From: Gammaproteobacteria bacterium
GTDB taxonomy: Bacteria > Pseudomonadota > Gammaproteobacteria > HK1
DNA length: 64,000 nt
NCBI GenBank assembly: GCA_011775625.1
Contig: JAABYT010000052.1
Span: 1-64,000 of the forward strand
Direction: 5' to 3'
Below the pieces are notes generated by a model, which was not told where the DNA came from, did no database searches, and saw only the letters and a list, made by a program, of their open reading frames with translations. Below, in pieces: positions 34,247-44,475 of this stretch. The first letter of the stretch is position 1. The number at the start of each line of letters is the position of its first letter. The position numbers were made by a program, and so were the translations under genes.

Positions 34247-34855
34247 CTATTTCTCGCCCTGACTCTGCTGAAGAACCGTGAACAGCAGCTCGCCCGCGAA
34301 ACGGCACATGAGTGTGAGAAGCGTCTGATCGCCGACAGTGAAGAGCTTGTCGTCTTTCTTGTTGAGCACCTCGATAACACCCAGCACACGCCCTCCGCCG
34401 ATGATGGGCGCTGCCAGAACCGAGTCGGTCCTGAAACCCAGCTCGCGATCCAGGGCAGGATAGAATCGATCATCGGCCTGAGCATCGTTGACGATCGTCG
34501 CCCGACGATGCTTGGCCACCCAGCCCGCGATTCCCTCGTCCGGTGGCAGCCGCTGCCAGGCGAGCTGCTCTTTCGCGGCCTCGCCATGAGTAATGACGAA
34601 GACCAGCTCGTTGGTATCCTCATCGAGGACGAGAAGGGAGCCGTCGCTGGCATTGATAGTGTGCAGCGCGTTTCCGAGCACATCTGAAAGAAGCTCCATC
34701 AGCTCCGCCTCGGGCAACGGCTGCTCGACGGCCTCCATCAGGTTCTGCATGGAGTCGATAAAAGTTCGCAGTGAGCGGATCTCGGCGCGCAAAGACGCGT
34801 TCTCGGACTCGAGTTGGGCAATCTCGTCTCGAACCTTATCTTGAGAGTCGCTCAT
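34247..34855 (-). CDS. GAF-domain protein A (downstream copy of a tandem pair)
   Basis: A 202-residue cytoplasmic protein. An N-terminal coiled coil of about 45 residues (QDKVRDEIAQLESENASLRA) is followed by a single GAF domain, with SLLVLDEDTNELVFV, DEGIAGWVAKHRRATIVND, FRTDSVLAAPIIGGGRVLGV and LTLMCRFAGELL. There is no output domain. It is clearly paralogous to the gene just upstream, sharing the coiled coil, the GIAGWVA and LTLMCRFAGELL motifs and length. GAF domains bind small ligands or mediate dimerisation; the ligand here is unknown. The ATG at 34855 is preferred to a TTG at 34864. Confidence 0.8.
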   Translation of the reverse strand: MSDSQDKVRDEIAQLESENASLRAEIRSLRTFIDSMQNLMEAVEQPLPEAELMELLSDVLGNALHTINASDGSLLVLDEDTNELVFVITHGEAAKEQLAWQRLPPDEGIAGWVAKHRRATIVNDAQADDRFYPALDRELGFRTDSVLAAPIIGGGRVLGVIEVLNKKDDKLFTVGDQTLLTLMCRFAGELLFTVLQQSQGEK

Positions 34856-34864
34856 GGCTGTCAA

Positions 34865-35506
34865 TTATGCCTGTCCCACGCTTTTCATGCTCTGGGTAAG
34901 TTCGGCCTTCGAGATCGCACGGTTGAGCAGCTCACCGGCGAAACGGCACATGAGCGTCAGCACGGTCAGGTTGCCCGTGCTGAACAGCTGCCCGTTCTGC
35001 TTGTTGATCACCTCGACGACGCCGAGCAGGCGGTTGCCGCCAAGCAGCGGCGCAGCCAGCATCGACGACGTGCGGTAGTCGAGCTCGACGTCCAGCTCGG
35101 CGTAGAATCTTTCGTCGGCGGGCACGTTGTTGACCGCGGCGCCACGTCGATTTTCGGCGACCCAGCCGGCGATACCGCGGCCTGCGGGCAATCGCCGACC
35201 GATCAGATTTGGCCGCGTCGCCTCACCCTGCACCAGCACGAACACCAGCTCGCCGGTTTCCTCGTCGGGAATCAGCAGGGATCCGTCTCTGGCGCCGATG
35301 GCGCGGATCGCGCTCTCGAGCACGCGCGCGAGTAGCCCCAGCGCTTCGGACTCGCCGGTCGGGCTCTCAATCGCCTCGATAAGCGTGACCATGGAGTCCA
35401 TGAACTGGCGAAGCACGTCGGCTTCCTGCTCGAGCTCGAGGTTCTCCTCGCGCAGGGCCTCGAGGCGCTCGAGCCAGTCCTGTTCGCTCAACTGTGTATC
35501 GGTCAT
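34865..35506 (-). CDS. GAF-domain protein B (upstream copy of a tandem pair)
   Basis: A 213-residue protein with an N-terminal coiled coil (ERLEALREENLELEQEADVL) and one GAF domain: SLLIPDEETGELVFVLVQG, AGRGIAGWVAENRRGAAVNN, YRTSSMLAAPLLGGNRLLGV, LTLMCRFAGELL. It lies nine bases upstream of copy A in the same direction, so the pair arose by tandem duplication and is co-transcribed. No kinase, cyclase or DNA-binding domain is attached, so they may act as a heterodimeric sensor on a separate partner. That is inference. Confidence 0.8.
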   Translation of the reverse strand: MTDTQLSEQDWLERLEALREENLELEQEADVLRQFMDSMVTLIEAIESPTGESEALGLLARVLESAIRAIGARDGSLLIPDEETGELVFVLVQGEATRPNLIGRRLPAGRGIAGWVAENRRGAAVNNVPADERFYAELDVELDYRTSSMLAAPLLGGNRLLGVVEVINKQNGQLFSTGNLTVLTLMCRFAGELLNRAISKAELTQSMKSVGQA

Positions 35507-36697: not shown

Positions 36698-36723
36698 GCG
36701 CTGCCGCACGCCCGGGCGGTGAA

Positions 36724-38094
36724 GTGAACCCGCGGGCCACGCACGCCCCAGGCGGCGCCTTCTCTCCGGCGGCCCTCGCCGAGTCCCTCGCGCGGCTGCC
36801 GGCGATGCGACGTATCATCGTTGCGTACAGCGGCGGCGCCGATTCGCTGGCCCTGCTGCACGCCATGTGCGCGCTGCGCGAGCGGCTTGCGCCCACGGAG
36901 CTTTCGGCTGTGCACGTGCACCACGGCCTGCACGACCAGGCCGACGAATGGCTGGACGGTTGCGCACGCGCGTGCACCGCGCTCGACGTGTCACTCGAGG
37001 TCATTCGTGTCGATGCCGCCGCTGACACCGGTGAGAGTCCGGAGGCAGCGGCCCGGCAGGCACGCTACGAGGCTCTGGAGAAGCTTCCCGGTGTGGACGA
37101 AGCGGTGTGCACCGCGCATCACCAGCGCGACCAGGCCGAGACCGTGCTGCTTCAGCTGCTTCGAGGCGCCGGAGCAGCCGGGCTGGCGGCGATGCCGGCG
37201 CTCGCTCCGCTCGGGCGCGGCTGGCTCGTGCGCCCGCTGCTAGACACGTGCCCGCGCGCCCTGCGCGACTATCTGGTGCGAAACGGTGTGGAGTGGAGCG
37301 AAGACCCGAGCAACGCGGATCGGCGCTTCGATCGCAATTATCTGCGCCACGAGGTCTTTCCGCTGCTCGAGAGACGCTGGCCCGGGGTGCACCGAACACT
37401 GGCGCGTGCCGCGGCTCACCAGGCCGACAGCGTCGCGCTCGCGGCGGATCTGGCGGAGCTCGACGTGCACGACGCCCGGGGCCGTGCGCCCGGGACGCTG
37501 TCGGCCGGCGGTCTCCTGCGGCTGTCGCCGCCCCGCGCGCGTAACCTGCTGCGTTTTTGGCTCTCGGAGCGGGGGCTTTCGGCGCCGACTGCGGCCCATC
37601 TGGAGCGGATCCTCACCGAGCTGGTAGGAGCCCGCGAGGACGCCGAGCCTCTGGTCTGCTGGCCGGGCGCCGAGGTGCGCCGCTATCGTGACGACGTCCA
37701 CGCCGGGCCTGCGATGCCCGCGCACGATGGGTCGTGGGTCGTGGCCTGGAATCCCGGCGACCCGCTCGAGCTGCCCCTCGGCCGTCTCGAGGCCGTCAGC
37801 GTCGAAGGCCGCGGCCTCGACGTGGAACGCTGCCGGGGCGCGCGCGTCGAGGTGCGCTTCCGGCAGGGAGGCGAGCGTTTTCAGCCTGCCGGCCGTGCGC
37901 ACTCCACGTCGCTCAAGAAACTGCTTCAGGAGAGCGGCGTGCCGCCCTGGCTACGGGAGCGAATTCCACTCGTCTACGTCGACGACGCGCTTGCCGCGGT
38001 TGCGGGGCTTTGGGTCGCACGGACTTTCGCGGCCGCCGAGGGCAGGCCCGGATGGGTGCTAACATGGAGCGTGCTCGCCGGGCATCGGGCCTGA
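36724..38094 (+). CDS. tilS: tRNA(Ile)-lysidine synthetase
   Basis: A 456-residue enzyme that attaches lysine to C34 of tRNA-Ile(CAU), letting it read AUA. The PP-loop motif IVAYSGGADSLALLHAM, the HHGLHDQADEW helix, CTAHHQRDQAETVLLQLLRG, RPLLD, and WSEDPSNADRRFDRNYLRHEV are diagnostic. A C-terminal TilS substrate-binding domain (GERFQPAGRAHSTSLKKLLQE) completes it. The GTG at 36724 has GGGCGGTGAA upstream. In many relatives tilS follows accA directly; here about 2.9 kb of other genes intervene. Confidence 0.94.
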   Translation: MNPRATHAPGGAFSPAALAESLARLPAMRRIIVAYSGGADSLALLHAMCALRERLAPTELSAVHVHHGLHDQADEWLDGCARACTALDVSLEVIRVDAAADTGESPEAAARQARYEALEKLPGVDEAVCTAHHQRDQAETVLLQLLRGAGAAGLAAMPALAPLGRGWLVRPLLDTCPRALRDYLVRNGVEWSEDPSNADRRFDRNYLRHEVFPLLERRWPGVHRTLARAAAHQADSVALAADLAELDVHDARGRAPGTLSAGGLLRLSPPRARNLLRFWLSERGLSAPTAAHLERILTELVGAREDAEPLVCWPGAEVRRYRDDVHAGPAMPAHDGSWVVAWNPGDPLELPLGRLEAVSVEGRGLDVERCRGARVEVRFRQGGERFQPAGRAHSTSLKKLLQESGVPPWLRERIPLVYVDDALAAVAGLWVARTFAAAEGRPGWVLTWSVLAGHRA

Positions 38095-38127: not shown

Positions 38128-38538
38128 ATGGCGTTCGACGAAAATATCGCCCCCGACGTCGATTCGGTGCTGACCGCGACGGCGCTGCTCGACATCACCG
38201 AGTGGGATTTCTTCAATCTCGCTTACAACCGCTGGCACGGTGAGCCGGCCGCGGAGGGGATCATGGAGCCGATATTCGCCGCCTACATGTTTGACGACAT
38301 TGTGCCCCCGTGGGCCCGTCACTTCTCGCGTCTGGTGGAGCGTCTTTACCGCCGCGGCGTGCTCGATCGGGCCGCGCTCGGCGTCGAGCGCCTGCCTTCC
38401 AGTGCCCAGATGGTCGGGCGCGGCATGCGCTACAGTGTCCTCATCGCCGCGATTCTCACCGCGCTCATCGTAGTGGCCGAGTTTCTGGCCCAGATCGTCA
38501 AGATCGGGGAGCGCTGCTTTTTTCCGCCCTGTTACTGA
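38128..38538 (+). CDS. small single-pass membrane protein of unknown function
   Basis: A 136-residue protein I do not recognise. The N-terminal 100 residues are soluble, rich in aromatic and acidic residues (LLDITEWDFFNLAYNRWHG). A basic turn is followed by one hydrophobic segment at about 103-126, then IGERCFFPPCY with two cysteines at the very end. It starts 33 bases after tilS in the same direction. Codon bias toward G/C at third positions resembles the neighbours, supporting real coding. It could be a tail-anchored protein with the soluble part in the cytoplasm. Confidence 0.6.
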   Translation: MAFDENIAPDVDSVLTATALLDITEWDFFNLAYNRWHGEPAAEGIMEPIFAAYMFDDIVPPWARHFSRLVERLYRRGVLDRAALGVERLPSSAQMVGRGMRYSVLIAAILTALIVVAEFLAQIVKIGERCFFPPCY

Positions 38539-38565: not shown

Positions 38566-40110
38566 CTACTGGCGACCCAGCCCCCTTTTTCTGTCCGATG
38601 GGCGAAAAGGCGTGACGGTGCCGTCGCCACCCTCGATGCCGGCACGATCCCGTGCGGCGAGCAAGGTGAACTTGAGCGTCACGTCGCCGAGCTCGACGAG
38701 ATCGCCGTTGCCGAGGATCGCGCTGCGCGCCTTGCGGCCGTTGACATACACGCCGTTGAGGGAGTCCAGATCGCGGATCACGTAACGGTTGCTCATGTCG
38801 TGCCTGATTTCCGCGTGAAAGCGCGAAATCGAAGGGTCGGCCACCATCAGCTCGTTGTCGGCGTGCCGGCCGATGCGAAACGTCTCGCCGGAGATAGGGT
38901 GGCGGGCGCGCAGCTCGTCCTGAACCTCCAGGTAGGCGAAGGGACGAGCACCGAGCTCGACCGTCTCCGCCCAGTTTGACTCGGGCTGCGCTGCGCCCGA
39001 GCGGCGCCTGACGAGCCATGTGAGGACCGTTGCCGCGATCAAAAGCGCCGCTCCGATGCTCACCCAGAGAAGATTTCGCCCGAGCCAGCCCTGGCCCTGC
39101 GCCGCCGTGGCCCGCCCGGTCTGTGCGGCCGGCGCCGCCTGCACCGCGGGAGCATGGCCGCCGGCGAAGGCGTCGAGACGCAGGGGCACATGGGCCGAGG
39201 CGCTGCCGACGGCCCCTCGCCAGCGCAGCTCGAGGATCGCTTCCGGCCCCAGCCCCGCGGGATCTCGAAGCACCGCGGACAGGTCGACCTGCAAGCGGCC
39301 GCCGCTGGCGAGCTGGGCGAATACACGCGCGGCGAAATCGTCGGCAAGCTCGGCCCCCGGTTCCACCGTCACGTACAGCCCCCCGGTCTCCTCGGCGAGC
39401 CTGCGCAGGCGTTCCAGAGGTGCCGAGCGGTCCGGCGTTTCCAGATAGCCGACGGCGAAGATGGCCACCTCGTACTGGCGTGCCGCGTCGACCACGTCGT
39501 CATGGAAGTAGGCGGAATCGTTGGCGACGCCGTCGGACATCAGGACCAGCGCCCGCCTCTGGGCCGGATAGTGGCCCAGCAGTCGAACCGCCTCGAGGGC
39601 GCTGCGATAGAGCTGTGCCGCGCCGTCAGCGGGGGTGAGTCCGGCGAGGGCGTTGCGCACGCGCTCGGCGCCCGGGGCGATCGGGGCAAGCATCTCCATC
39701 TCCCGGTCGAAGCTGGCGAGGCCGTAGTGCTGATCGGCGGGGCTGGCGTCGAGGAGGCCGGTCACGTGCTGCCGCGCGCTCCCGGTGAGCTCGGCGCGAC
39801 TGGCATCGACCAGGAACATGACGGCGCTCGAGCCGGGTTGCGCGGCGTAGGGCGTGATGCGAGGCGCCGGCAGCTCGCGTCCCGCGAGGCGCGCCGTGAC
39901 CTGCTCGGAACTGGTTGCCGCGAAGCGCCGGAAGTCACAGGCGAGCGACGTCGCATCCTGCTGCCAGCAGGCCAGCTGCACCCCTTCGCCGAAGATGTGA
40001 TAGTCGTAGGCAGCGGCGCTGCCGAGCCACGCCAGCAGGGCGCTCGCGAAGGCAATGGCGAACCGACGCCGCGCGACGCGGCGCATCGTGGCGATGGTTG
40101 CCGAGCCCAT
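38566..40110 (-). CDS. secreted VWA domain / transmembrane / cytoplasmic FHA domain protein
   Basis: A 514-residue protein. A signal peptide (RRVARRRFAIAFASALLAWL) leads to a periplasmic von Willebrand A domain at about 95-265 (AVMFLVDASRAELTG, ALVLMSDGVANDS). A membrane segment follows at about 347-368, then a cytoplasmic FHA domain at about 410-485 with all key residues: R415 in FRIGRH, SRFH (429-432) and LNGVYVNG (N452). FHA domains bind phosphothreonine. The VWA metal site reads DASRA instead of DxSxS, so metal binding may be altered. A kinase gene lies about 1.6 kb upstream on the same strand beyond fetAB; a functional link is plausible. The start could be ATG 40110 or 40086. Confidence 0.8.
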   Translation of the reverse strand: MGSATIATMRRVARRRFAIAFASALLAWLGSAAAYDYHIFGEGVQLACWQQDATSLACDFRRFAATSSEQVTARLAGRELPAPRITPYAAQPGSSAVMFLVDASRAELTGSARQHVTGLLDASPADQHYGLASFDREMEMLAPIAPGAERVRNALAGLTPADGAAQLYRSALEAVRLLGHYPAQRRALVLMSDGVANDSAYFHDDVVDAARQYEVAIFAVGYLETPDRSAPLERLRRLAEETGGLYVTVEPGAELADDFAARVFAQLASGGRLQVDLSAVLRDPAGLGPEAILELRWRGAVGSASAHVPLRLDAFAGGHAPAVQAAPAAQTGRATAAQGQGWLGRNLLWVSIGAALLIAATVLTWLVRRRSGAAQPESNWAETVELGARPFAYLEVQDELRARHPISGETFRIGRHADNELMVADPSISRFHAEIRHDMSNRYVIRDLDSLNGVYVNGRKARSAILGNGDLVELGDVTLKFTLLAARDRAGIEGGDGTVTPFRPSDRKRGLGRQ

Positions 40111-40291
40111 GGATTCCGCTTCCGCCTTGTTATCGTTGGCCGGCCGCGCTGCCCCTGACGGTTGACAGCGCAACTCGAGCCAATGGCCTTATGTTAGCGC
40201 GATTGGGTCTCCAATGCCGCCCTCTGATTGACCCCGGAAAACATAAAAAATCCTTTTGTTATTCGACGCTTACTGACAAGACCCGGGTTCG

Positions 40292-41083
40292 TCAGGGAGC
40301 TCGCAGGCGGTCCAGGCGCAGGCGCTCCCGGGCGTCGAAGAGGCGCCGGCAGGCCACCTGAACGGCGAACGCCGTGCCGCCGGTGGTGGCCCCCATGATC
40401 AGGCACATGATGAGAATCTGGTACTTGACCGCCTCGACGGGCGGTGCACCGGCAAGGATCTGGCCGGTCATCATGCCCGGCAGGCTGACGATGCCCGCCG
40501 CCGCCATGGCATTCAGCGTCGGGATCAGGCCGGCACGCATGCAGTCGCGACGGATATCGGTCACCGCTTCGCGCCAGGTGTGGCCGAGCATGAGGCGGGC
40601 CTCGACGGCGTCGCGCTGGACCCACAGGGTCTGGGTGAGCCGATCGAGCCCCAGCGCCACGCCGGTCATGGTGTTGCCGAGCAGCATGCCGAGCAACGGG
40701 ATGGCGTATTGGGGCGTGTACCACGGCGAGGGCCCGAGAATGACCACCAGGGTCAGGACCGTGACCGTGAAGGTCGACAGGAACATGGCCGCCACGCCGA
40801 TGCCGATGCTCCACGCGCCGGCCAGTCGGCGTTTCTGGCGCGCGGCGCTCTCGTAGCCCGCTACGATCAGCATCACCAGCGCGATGATGCCGATCCAGGT
40901 GAGATCGACGCGGTCGAACACCACCTTCAGAATCAGGCCGACCAGCAGCAGCTGCACCACCATGCGCGTGCCGGCGATGAGAAGGCTCGCCGTGAGACCA
41001 AGCCTGAGGGCAAACGCCAGCGCCGCCGAGCCGAGCACGAGGAGCGCGGCCAGCGCCAGCTCCAGGGGGCCGAGAAGAATCAT
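40292..41083 (-). CDS. fetB: FetB-like ABC transporter permease (UPF0014 family)
   Basis: A 263-residue permease with about seven membrane segments. The wording TASLLIAGTRMVVQLLLVGLIL, NTMTGVALGLDRL, RRDCMRAGLIPTLNAMAAAGIVSLPGMMTGQILAG and MGATTGGTAFAV is characteristic of the FetB/YbbM family, whose E. coli member exports iron with FetA under oxidative stress. The ATG overlaps the ATPase gene stop by four bases (ATGA), so the two subunits are coupled. Substrate by homology is iron; not demonstrable here. Confidence 0.85.
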   Translation of the reverse strand: MILLGPLELALAALLVLGSAALAFALRLGLTASLLIAGTRMVVQLLLVGLILKVVFDRVDLTWIGIIALVMLIVAGYESAARQKRRLAGAWSIGIGVAAMFLSTFTVTVLTLVVILGPSPWYTPQYAIPLLGMLLGNTMTGVALGLDRLTQTLWVQRDAVEARLMLGHTWREAVTDIRRDCMRAGLIPTLNAMAAAGIVSLPGMMTGQILAGAPPVEAVKYQILIMCLIMGATTGGTAFAVQVACRRLFDARERLRLDRLRAP

Positions 41084-41718
41084 CGCGGCGCGTCCCCGAT
41101 CGGCTCGGTGTCCGGCGCTTGCACCAGCCGACCACCCTCGAGCCGCAGGCGACGGTCGGCCACGCGGCGCATTTGCTGCGGGTCGTGGCTTACCCACAGG
41201 ACCGCCGCCCCTTCGCTCCGCCGGTAGTCCGCGATCAGGTGCTCGACCCGTAAGGCGTTGTCCGGATCGAGATTGGCCGTGGGCTCGTCGAGCAGCAGCA
41301 CCCGTGGGTGATTGGCAAGCAGGCGCAGCAGCGCGAACCGCTGTCGTTCGCCGCTGGAGAGCTTTGCCACCGGCGCGCGCAGCAGCGCCTCGTCGAGGGC
41401 CAGTGCCTCGAGCATCTCGCCCGCCGGCGGTGCTGCAAAATGCTCATCGACGCGATCCCGCCACCAGCGGCTGTCCGCCGCCAGCATGCCGACCCGACGG
41501 CGCCACTCCGAGGGCTCGAGCGCCTCGGCGGTGGTGCCCTGGCAGGCGACCCGTCCTTCGTGCACGTCCAGGTCGGCGATGGCGCGCAGCAACCGGCTTT
41601 TGCCGGCGCCGGATGGGCCGCCGAGCGCCAGGCACTCGCGGGGCGCCAGCCACAGGTCCACGGGGCCCACGCCGCCGAAGCGCAGCCCCTCGACGTCGAG
41701 CTGGCGGGCCTCGGTCAT
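41080..41718 (-). CDS. fetA: FetA-like ABC transporter ATP-binding protein
   Basis: A 212-residue ATPase with Walker A GGPSGAGKSRLLR, signature LSSGERQRFALLRLL, Walker B VLLLDEPTANLD and the switch histidine in WVSHDPQQM. It is short, as expected for the FetA/YbbL type, and overlaps the FetB permease gene. The ATG at 41718 is ten bases from the end of the upstream kinase gene, so kinase and transporter may share a transcript. Iron export is inferred from the permease partner. Confidence 0.85.
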   Translation of the reverse strand: MTEARQLDVEGLRFGGVGPVDLWLAPRECLALGGPSGAGKSRLLRAIADLDVHEGRVACQGTTAEALEPSEWRRRVGMLAADSRWWRDRVDEHFAAPPAGEMLEALALDEALLRAPVAKLSSGERQRFALLRLLANHPRVLLLDEPTANLDPDNALRVEHLIADYRRSEGAAVLWVSHDPQQMRRVADRRLRLEGGRLVQAPDTEPIGDAPR

Positions 41719-41728
41719 CGAGTGCGAC

Positions 41729-43018
41729 TCACACCCGACGCAGCTGGGAGAGAAGGGAAGTGGCGTCGGTGAGCCGCTCGATCAGCGTGCGCACGAACGC
41801 CCGGTGGAAGCGCAGCTGAGTGTCTTCGGCGGCGCGATCGATAGTGGAGTCGTTGACCTTCATCAGTGAGACATCGGTGCGCGCAATGGCGCTGGCGATG
41901 CGCCGCGCGCGGCTGAGATATCCCATCTCACCGAAGCAGTCGCCTTCCTGAAGTACGTTCACGACGCTGCCTTCTTTCTCGATGATGACCACGCCGGACA
42001 GCACGATATAGAAGGAGTGGTCCATATCGCCCTCGCGGATGATCGACTGGCCGGGCGAGTAGGTCTGCCAGGCGCAGGCGCGAATCAGCTCCCAGATGTC
42101 TGCGTCGGAGAAACCTTTGAAGAATCCAAGGCTCTTGATGGTGGCGAACTTCTCGCGTAATCCGTCCTCGTCGGCGACGGCATCCAGGTCTTCGAATATC
42201 ACGGCCAGGTCCGCCGCCAGGTCGAGCCCGCTGGCGTAGCGCTCGCTCGGATTCTTCTTCAGCATGCGTCCCAACGTGTAGCTGAGCTCCTGCGGCAGGT
42301 CGCTGCGGAATTCGCCGAGCGGGCGCGGCTCGGCACTGGATATTTTCTGGTTGATGGCGAACAGACTCTCTGCCTGAAAGGGATGGGAGCCGGTCAGCAG
42401 CTGATACATGACGGTTCCCAGGGAGAATATGTCGCTCTGCCCGGTAATGGCTTCTTCGTTGAATTGCTCGGGCGACATGTACAAGGGCGAGCCCAGGACT
42501 CCGATGAACTGCGTCTGCATGGCGTCGGCGCGCGTGATCATGGCGACGCTGAAATCGGCAAGCTTGACGTCGCGATCCTGAGTCAGAAGGATGTTGCCAG
42601 GCTTGATGTCGCGATGAATGACGCCCTGGCGATGGGCATAATCCAGAGCCTTGGCGGTTTTGTAGACGATGCCGACCACCTCCGGCACTGAGAGCAGCCT
42701 GTCGGGGCTGCAATAAGGCTCGAGCGTATCGCCATCTTCGACGAGCTCCATCACCAGGTAGCAGCAGTCTCCGTCCATGTCGGCGTCGAATACTTGAAGG
42801 ATATTCGGGTGATCGAGCATGCCGGCTGCATGGGCCTCGTTGAAGAACAGCTTGCGAAACTTGCGCGCATTGGTGGTGTGCTCCGCGTGCTGCGGATGCG
42901 CGACCTTGATCGCCACCAGCCGGTTAGTGAACGGATCGTGGGCCGAGTACACCGTGCCCATGCTGCCGCTCGCAAGGCGCTCGACGAGCTCGTACTTGCC
43001 GACCTTCTCCGCAAGCAT
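41729..43018 (-). CDS. soluble Ser/Thr protein kinase fused to a cyclic-nucleotide-binding domain
   Basis: A 429-residue Hanks-type kinase (about 9-275) followed by a cNMP-binding domain (about 300-395). The kinase has LASGSMGTVY (P-loop), VAIK (K38), HRDIKPGN (135-142) and the activation segment GSPLYMSPEQF. The metal-binding DFG is DFS (155-157). The C-terminal domain shows the phosphate-binding-cassette pattern FGEMGYLSRARRIASAIA with Glu and Arg, so it could bind cAMP or cGMP and gate the kinase. No membrane segment is present. The ATG at 43018 follows GGTGGGA; an in-frame GTG at 43054 is weaker. It diverges from mtaB; fetAB and the FHA gene follow in the same direction. Confidence 0.88.
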   Translation of the reverse strand: MLAEKVGKYELVERLASGSMGTVYSAHDPFTNRLVAIKVAHPQHAEHTTNARKFRKLFFNEAHAAGMLDHPNILQVFDADMDGDCCYLVMELVEDGDTLEPYCSPDRLLSVPEVVGIVYKTAKALDYAHRQGVIHRDIKPGNILLTQDRDVKLADFSVAMITRADAMQTQFIGVLGSPLYMSPEQFNEEAITGQSDIFSLGTVMYQLLTGSHPFQAESLFAINQKISSAEPRPLGEFRSDLPQELSYTLGRMLKKNPSERYASGLDLAADLAVIFEDLDAVADEDGLREKFATIKSLGFFKGFSDADIWELIRACAWQTYSPGQSIIREGDMDHSFYIVLSGVVIIEKEGSVVNVLQEGDCFGEMGYLSRARRIASAIARTDVSLMKVNDSTIDRAAEDTQLRFHRAFVRTLIERLTDATSLLSQLRRV

Positions 43019-43158
43019 GGAATTTCCCACCGGCTGCAGATGCCGGATGCCCACCCGGCGGTGATGTTAGCGCAAAGTCGCACTCTGGCGCACCGGCGGA
43101 CGGCTCTATAGAATCAGGCGCCGGCTTTCGAGTGCGGCTTCGTATCCAGGGAATTCAG

Positions 43159-44475
43159 TTGAAAAGCGTCGCTTTCTGCACCTTCGGCTGCCGTCTCAAC
43201 CAGTACGACACCGAGACGATCCGCACGCTGCTCGACACATATGGTGGCTGGCGCAGCGTGCCGTTTCGCGAGCATGCCGACGTCTATGTGGTCAACACCT
43301 GCAGCGTGACGGCCCGGGCAGACGCCACCTGCCGCAAGGCCATCCGGCGTATCCACGCCGAAAGGCCGGAGTCCGCCATTGTCGTGACAGGCTGCTACGC
43401 TCAGCGCGCTCCGCGTGAGATTGCCGAGCTGCCGGGCGTGCAGCTCGTTGTCGGCGCCGCCGAGCGCGGCGACATTGCATACAAAATGGGCAGTCTGAGC
43501 GCCGGCGAGGTGCAGATCGCGGTGTCACCGATCGCCGAGGCCAGCGAGTTCGTGGACGTGCCCATTACCGAGATGATGGAGCACAGCCGTGCCTTCGTTA
43601 AGGTGCAGGAAGGCTGTAACGAGTCGTGCAGCTTCTGCATCGTTCCCCAGACCCGCGGAGTATCGAGAAGTCGCTCGCCGGAGAGCGTTCTGGGCCAGGT
43701 GCGTGAGCTGGTGGCGGCCGGCTACGAGGAGATCGTGCTGACCGGGGTGCATCTCGGTGACTACGGCCTGGACCTTGCGCACAGGCAATGCTCGCTCGCG
43801 GATCTCGTGCGCGAGATTCTCGCGACGCCGGGACTCGCACGCTTTCGCTTGAGCTCTATCGAGCCTGCGTCGATTACCGATGAGCTGATCGCGCTCATGG
43901 CTGGTCACGATAAGTTTGCCAGGCATTTTCATATTCCGCTGCAGAGCGCGAGCAACGCCATACTCTCGCGCATGAAAAGGCGCTACACGGCCGAGCAGTT
44001 CTCGCGCCTCATTGGCCAGATCGCGGAGGCAATTCCCGATTGCGGTATCGGTACGGACGTGATTTGCGGGTTCCCGGGAGAGAGCGATGCCCACTTCCAG
44101 GAAACTTTCGACTGTCTCGCCGAGCTGCCGATCACCTACCTGCACCCCTTCACTTACTCGGTGCGGCCTGGATCGGAAGCGGAAAGCTACGGAGATCAGA
44201 TTCCCGGAGAGGTCAAGAAGCGTCGCACGCGCGCGCTCAAACGACTCATGCGGGACAAGCAGCGCGCGTTTCGCGAGCACCACGTCGGTAGGACTCTGCC
44301 CGTGCTGCTGGAAACCTCGCGACGCGGAAGTCGAACGCAGCTCGCTGGTTGGACCGACAATTATCTGCGCATAGAGCTCGGAGAGGGGACTGCTGACGGC
44401 GGCATCGAGCACGTGCGGATCGTCGCGCTCGAAGGCGATCAGCTGATCGGGGAACGCCTCGCCGCCTGCGCCTGA
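43159..44475 (+). CDS. mtaB: tRNA t6A37 methylthiotransferase MtaB
   Basis: A 438-residue radical-SAM methylthiotransferase converting t6A37 to ms2t6A37. The N-terminal UPF0004 domain carries cysteines in TFGCRLNQYD, VNTCSVT and GCYAQ. The radical-SAM cluster is CNESCSFC (CxxxCxxC). A C-terminal TRAM domain ends the protein. LNQYDTE and the short N-terminal spacing distinguish MtaB from MiaB and RimO. Translation probably starts at TTG 43159 after AGGGA; a GTG at 43132 would add nine residues without a ribosome-binding site. It converges on rnd eight bases away. Confidence 0.92.
   Translation: MKSVAFCTFGCRLNQYDTETIRTLLDTYGGWRSVPFREHADVYVVNTCSVTARADATCRKAIRRIHAERPESAIVVTGCYAQRAPREIAELPGVQLVVGAAERGDIAYKMGSLSAGEVQIAVSPIAEASEFVDVPITEMMEHSRAFVKVQEGCNESCSFCIVPQTRGVSRSRSPESVLGQVRELVAAGYEEIVLTGVHLGDYGLDLAHRQCSLADLVREILATPGLARFRLSSIEPASITDELIALMAGHDKFARHFHIPLQSASNAILSRMKRRYTAEQFSRLIGQIAEAIPDCGIGTDVICGFPGESDAHFQETFDCLAELPITYLHPFTYSVRPGSEAESYGDQIPGEVKKRRTRALKRLMRDKQRAFREHHVGRTLPVLLETSRRGSRTQLAGWTDNYLRIELGEGTADGGIEHVRIVALEGDQLIGERLAACA

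Follow-up and report, generated by a model that had tools for sequence, protein, structure and literature searches.

A cyclic-nucleotide-domain kinase, a FetAB-like transporter and a VWA-FHA protein share one gammaproteobacterial locus, probably as neighbours of mostly separate history

When a protein kinase gene stands close to a gene for an FHA protein, do the two belong to one pathway? The question is raised by four genes in a stretch of 64,000 nucleotides, called here the window, which forms the start of contig C2 (JAABYT010000052.1) of a Gammaproteobacteria bacterium (genome G000, 3.08 Mb in 59 contigs). All four are intact, as judged from open reading frames and Pfam domains, and lie in one row on the minus strand, from 43018 to 38566. 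They encode a Ser/Thr kinase with a C-terminal cyclic-nucleotide-binding domain (cNBD), a FetA-like ATPase, a FetB-like permease, and an inner-membrane protein with a VWA domain, a membrane helix and an FHA domain (VWA-FHA hereafter). An earlier note on this DNA had taken them for one local phospho-signalling cluster. The premises of that proposal stood, namely an intact kinase, a plausible cyclic-nucleotide site, an FHA domain and tight spacing; the module is not well supported, the gene order being confined to one family. We consider it fairly probable that the row brings together three elements with histories of their own: a kinase gated by cyclic nucleotides, an exporter co-transcribed with it, and a reader of phosphorylation at the envelope.

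Gene order was compared in a sample of 369 genomes of the class, which bounds all statements on adjacency outside the window's family. The complete order MtaB, kinase, FetA, FetB, VWA-FHA, TilS was found in G000, G008, G011 and G014, which represent two genera within a single family. Another member, G001, has kinase and FetAB running up to a contig end, and VWA-FHA with TilS opening another contig. Adjacency of all four genes was not found outside this family in the sample. The unit is bounded by an MtaB-like gene divergent from the kinase (43132–44475, plus strand) and by the convergent TilS gene (36700–38094, plus strand), the conserved landmark next to which the VWA-FHA gene is found. Across the stretch the flanking genes NrdJ, MtaB and TilS, unrelated to the row, hold their order equally well, so general synteny accounts for much of the four-gene order. 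G007, again of the same family, has MtaB, FetAB, VWA-FHA and TilS, where MtaB and FetA stand about 200 bases apart and the kinase is missing at that address, and G005 has FetAB without a kinase between MtaB and FetA. Within family f134, G261 carries FetAB and VWA-FHA without the kinase (L222), and G149 carries VWA-FHA without FetAB on shared flanks. A four-gene module conserved throughout the class was thus rejected. Outside the family the genes are scattered, an outcome that the earlier note had itself named as telling against its cluster. Since the kinase is absent in G007 and has homologues elsewhere, and since the VWA-FHA gene is anchored to TilS, the claimed cluster is not well supported. 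Only part of one family keeps the four genes together, which argues for neighbours of mostly separate history and not for one pathway.

The kinase family itself, present in 60 of the 369 genomes, occurs in many neighbourhoods. In a tree, the window kinase groups with those of G001 and of three genomes of genus g8 (support 98/87). Members of the sister clade adjoin unrelated housekeeping genes: those at L070, L071 and L073 have ArgS, a SPOR protein and a response regulator next to them, and most of L077 to L082 have UvrC and a uracil-DNA glycosylase. ArgS, SPOR and ThiG genes adjoin some of the nearest other homologues, and further homologues adjoin genes for phosphoglucose isomerase, phosphatidylserine decarboxylase or FtsX-type proteins. 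An earlier-branching kinase, at L075, is followed downstream, after about 1.1 kb, by FetAB; the next 5.4 kb hold no VWA-FHA gene.

Two side observations concern this family. Same-strand pairs of kinase-cNBD genes were seen at L083, L084, L085, L086, L087, L089, L090, L091, L092, L095 and L099, directly adjacent at L087 and L095 and with one to a few genes between them at the others; in the tree, the first copies and the second copies fall into different clades. In relatives from Gallionella and Nitrosomonadales (L119:9429-10544 and L121), a cNBD-GGDEF protein is encoded directly downstream of the kinase-cNBD gene, hinting at cross-talk between cyclic nucleotides and cyclic di-GMP.

The VWA-FHA protein, found near full length in 25 of the sampled genomes, has other companions. 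Its constant neighbour is the convergent TilS gene, followed by AccA-like and DnaE-like genes (cluster labels given by position). In many families it closes an operon that encodes, in order, a YkuD L,D-transpeptidase, a DUF302 protein, a MotA/TolQ/ExbB-family protein, C8 (a periplasmic protein with one membrane helix), C4 (a small membrane protein) and VWA-FHA; C8 and C4 matched no Pfam family at E up to 1. When coordinates were compared, C8 adjoined VWA-FHA in 12 genomes and an FHA-only version in 6, making 18 genomes of nine families, and in five of these last six the gene order was verified. Examples at the TilS-AccA-DnaE address are L232:4078-8598, L220:2483-7814, L253:1715-5264 and L254:4465-9780. 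An NtrC-type regulator, a histidine kinase and cytochrome b561 are often encoded divergently upstream of the operon. Its reduced states comprise YkuD with VWA-FHA (L218, L151), VWA-FHA alone (the window's family), and the ExbB-like gene with C8, C4 and TilS, with no FHA gene recognised (L256, L257). No ExbB-like channel gene lies beside the window's FHA gene; the same genome holds a remote triad of ExbB-like, C8 and C4 genes on C57 (L248:6183-8050), with no FHA or YkuD gene recognised beside it. The simplest history, drawn from this distribution and not from a reconstructed tree, has the VWA-FHA gene remaining beside TilS as its operon partners disappeared from there, and FetAB and the kinase arriving upstream.

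What, then, does each element look like? The kinase (41729–43018, minus strand, as for all features of the row; 429 residues) matched Pkinase at 1.9e-48 and cNMP_binding at 9.4e-18. Its kinase domain spans residues 9–261 (42236–42994). In an alignment of 81 full-length kinase-cNBD relatives, the catalytic Lys38 (of VAIK), Glu61, Asp137 (of HRD), Asn142 and Asp155 (of the DFG motif) are invariant, so the domain is catalytically complete. The DFG motif reads DFS in the window kinase, and serine occupies this third position in 43 of the 81 relatives; with the catalytic residues invariant and DFS common in the family, a pseudokinase was rejected. The cNBD (residues 318–396, 41831–42067; PF00027) holds the phosphate-binding cassette GEMGYLSRARRIASAIA, in which Glu364 is kept in 81 of 81 sequences and Arg373 in 78 of 81. 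From these intact residues, the kinase is probably switched by cyclic nucleotides. Arg373 is followed by isoleucine in the window kinase and by threonine or serine in most relatives, so the ligand preference cannot be read from the sequence.

An AlphaFold model of the kinase (mean predicted local distance difference test, pLDDT, 84.9; predicted template modelling score, pTM, 0.64) consists of a PknB-like kinase domain, a beta-barrel cNBD and a long helix after it (residues 398–427, 41738–41827). It contains no membrane helix, and the protein is therefore taken to be soluble. The C-terminal helix resembles the dimerisation helix of CRP and may serve the same role. PknB was the best fold match in the PDB; the search gave kinase domains only and is thus uninformative on how the cNBD is arranged, and a pTM of 0.64 leaves domain packing open. 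Cyclic-nucleotide signalling is made plausible in this organism by an unusually rich repertoire, with 27 matches to class III cyclases and 18 to cNBDs in 3.1 Mb; two further full-length kinase-cNBD paralogues lie on C44 and C37.

Among known kinases, PknB/Stk1 enzymes share the Hanks-type kinase domain, the fold (that of Mycobacterium tuberculosis PknB) and the best NCBIfam score, which was to the PASTA-kinase model NF033483 and fell short of it (266.6 bits against a cut-off of 450, over residues 7–276 only). Unlike them, the window kinase lacks a membrane helix and a PASTA part, has a C-terminal cNBD, and reads DFS for DFG. With PKG it shares a kinase and a cNBD in one chain and, as in PKG and PKA, the phosphate-binding glutamate and arginine. 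It differs in having a single C-terminal cNBD instead of N-terminal ones, a kinase domain that is PknB-like in sequence and fold, and the isoleucine after the cassette arginine noted above. Bacterial cNBDs joined to kinases are on record in the survey that tabulates cassette motifs of cNBDs ('Other_bacterial', PMC2246266), which makes this architecture one of a known type; no characterised bacterial member, and no biochemistry of one, was found in the literature searched.

Ten bases separate the kinase stop from the start of the fetA-like gene (41080–41718, 212 residues; ABC_tran 1.7e-22), as against 2–15 bases in most relatives, and the kinase is probably co-transcribed with the exporter. At L072:9285-9450, in G014, the two genes are set apart by about 150 bp of inserted DNA, whose ends, AGCAATCTGTTGAAAGATG ... 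CATCTTTTAACAGACTGCT, are nearly inverted and which resembles a small mobile element. The fetA-like gene overlaps the fetB-like gene (40292–41083, 263 residues) at ATGA. As in the FetAB iron-efflux transporter, a UPF0014 permease (PF03649, 1.5e-84; 283.6 bits against a threshold of 22.6) is paired with a short ATPase in overlapping genes. Both subunits nevertheless score far below the equivalog cut-offs of NCBIfam, the ATPase, whose top hit was FetA, at 119 against 292 bits and the permease (TIGR00245) at 150 against 410. The pair is best called FetAB-like, a metal-exporter-like pump for which iron export is only predicted. The earlier note was thus right on a soluble Hanks kinase with its own cNBD and on a FetAB-like pair 10 bases away on the same strand.

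The gene for VWA-FHA (38566–40110, 514 residues) starts at ATG 40110, with an alternative ATG at 40086. It lies 181 bases from fetB, a gap that leaves transcription shared with fetB unproven. A scan for promoter-like and terminator-like sites, made to place the operon border, found none and is uninformative in this GC-rich genome. The protein runs from a signal peptide or membrane segment through the VWA domain (39352–39816) and a membrane helix (about residues 344–371, 38998–39081, by alignment and predicted structure) to the FHA domain (38686–38877, 1.6e-18); from this order, VWA is predicted to be periplasmic and FHA cytoplasmic. The structure model was built on four sequences (mean pLDDT 57), and only its membrane helix and secondary structure were used. 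The phosphothreonine-binding residues of the FHA domain (GR, SxSRxH and NG motifs) are intact, as GRHAD, SISRFH and LNGVYVNG, and conserved in relatives. By alignment, the metal ion-dependent adhesion site (MIDAS) of the VWA domain is degenerate: the window reads DAS, a three-residue gap and RA, then AAQLY and SDG, where relatives read DTSDPxR, TELYR and SDG, and the pattern DxSxS...T...D of a MIDAS-type adhesion protein is not present. Hence the layout and the intact FHA domain proposed for this protein hold, and its supposed metal-dependent adhesion role is weakened. In G005 (L234:3139-6306), a different Ser/Thr kinase is divergent from a VWA-FHA protein with the canonical MIDAS start DNSGS.

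The reading frames of this row are not a product of chance: the domains are kept and homologues occur in other genomes at 32–85% identity. Two features were noted nearby. Between VWA-FHA and TilS, a conserved 136-residue protein with one C-terminal membrane segment is encoded at 38128–38538 on the plus strand; it is 63–77% identical to its counterparts in G001 and G007 and matched no Pfam family. Two tandem GAF-domain proteins are encoded at 34247–35506, a pair kept near TilS throughout the window's family.

How might the three elements work? One of the many class III cyclases would supply a cyclic nucleotide, which would bind the CRP-like C-terminal domain of the kinase and alter packing or dimerisation through the C-terminal helix. 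The freed kinase would autophosphorylate its activation loop and then phosphorylate targets elsewhere in the cell. Kinase and FetAB-like exporter would rise together by co-transcription, with no direct effect of phosphorylation on the pump required. VWA-FHA, derived from an ExbB/TolQ-like channel and L,D-transpeptidase operon that would have eroded in the window's family, would act as an inner-membrane reader. Its FHA domain would bind phosphothreonine proteins in the cytoplasm, and its VWA-like periplasmic domain, presumably not metal-dependent in the window, would contact an envelope partner.

Several observations weigh against such separate histories. The gene order survives across two genera though the kinases are just 63–67% identical to the window's, which would suggest more persistence than wholly neutral adjacency predicts. 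The kinase occurs in 21 of the 25 genomes with VWA-FHA and in 39 of the 344 others (Fisher 7e-15), or, by family, in 10 of 11 as against 20 of about 171 (182 in total, a count of handles); these counts ignore relatedness and are confounded by lineage, and most co-occurring pairs are not adjacent. Kinases other than this one are found near VWA-FHA in G048 (L152), 12 bases downstream, and in G058 (L228), about 1 kb away. Together with the 10-base spacing, the order conserved in five genomes, and the intact kinase, cNBD and FHA domains, these observations favour a dedicated pathway, in which the cyclic-nucleotide-activated kinase would phosphorylate FetA, FetB or itself and the FHA domain would dock there, linking export to an envelope state sensed by VWA. 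We think this unlikely, given the kinase missing in G007, FetAB with VWA-FHA and no kinase at L222, the many kinase homologues (most of them) with neither partner, and flanks that are as syntenic as the four genes. FHA proteins occur elsewhere in the cell too, two of them encoded directly next to other kinases: on C40, kinase, PP2C and FHA genes follow in succession, with a cyclase match adjoining on the opposite strand, and on C13 an FHA match comes after a kinase match. Known kinase-PP2C-FHA clusters, such as PpkA-PppA-Fha of type VI secretion, likewise have a kinase near an FHA protein, but the cluster here has neither PP2C nor secretion genes. No PP2C_2 match was found anywhere on C2, the nearest such cluster being that on C40; with the phosphatase missing, the window cluster is not of this standard form. 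The type VI PpkA/Fha system was rejected, as no such genes lie beside the cluster.

Could a smaller unit, or a more dispersed one, do better? If kinase and exporter formed a regulatory pair in which the kinase tunes export, VWA-FHA would be a bystander, and both the short spacing in the window and most relatives and the separately branching L075, with FetAB and no VWA-FHA gene nearby, would follow. We regard this as quite unlikely, since FetAB lacks an adjoining kinase in G005, G007, G030, G035 and G050, and the insert in G014 separates the two genes. The co-occurrence, strong even without the window's family (17 of 21 against 39 of 344, p = 5e-12), leaves room for a looser, trans-acting link, in which the two families would cooperate wherever they are encoded, FHA reading the kinase's targets, and adjacency in the window would be incidental. 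The signal is not specific, however, since the kinase is also associated with the C8 (ExbB-like) module (p = 8e-11); phylogeny is not accounted for in the counts, and uncultured lineages rich in signalling are where both families are typically found. Such a network seems to us very improbable.

No description of the ExbB-like, YkuD and FHA operon was found in the literature searched. The FHA protein, with or without VWA, may read phosphorylation as a subunit of an envelope machine, so far undescribed, that is built on a proton channel and whose other parts would be the L,D-transpeptidase, DUF302, the ExbB/TolQ-like channel, C8 and C4. Such a machine would tie force or cell-wall work in the periplasm to the phosphorylation of threonines in the cytoplasm; the channel genes would have left the window site, and the cyclic-nucleotide-gated kinase could supply an input. 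This proposal is tentative, and on balance we doubt it. The closest comparison is GltG of the Myxococcus gliding machinery AglRQS, which binds the TolQ-like AglR in two-hybrid tests (PMC3169522) and for which the same kind of coupling was proposed. Both proteins have a cytoplasmic FHA domain, a single membrane helix and a periplasmic part, and relatives of the window protein share an operon with an ExbB/TolQ-like gene. GltG differs in its N-terminal FHA domain, TonB-like end and lack of VWA; the window has no adjoining channel genes, and its FHA domain matched the GltG model far below cut-off. By analogy, AglRQS-GltG may serve as a model for VWA-FHA function in genomes that keep the ExbB-like operon; membership is not claimed.

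Adjacency of a kinase and an FHA protein is often taken as a pathway, and the synteny described here marks both the reach and the limit of that inference. The parts of the locus are of known kinds, and more interest attaches to the by-product, the ExbB-like, transpeptidase and FHA operon. Should the kinase prove to be gated by cyclic nucleotides, it would offer a tractable bacterial analogue of PKG from a widespread family. The operon, for its part, points to an envelope machine under phospho-control in many Gammaproteobacteria.

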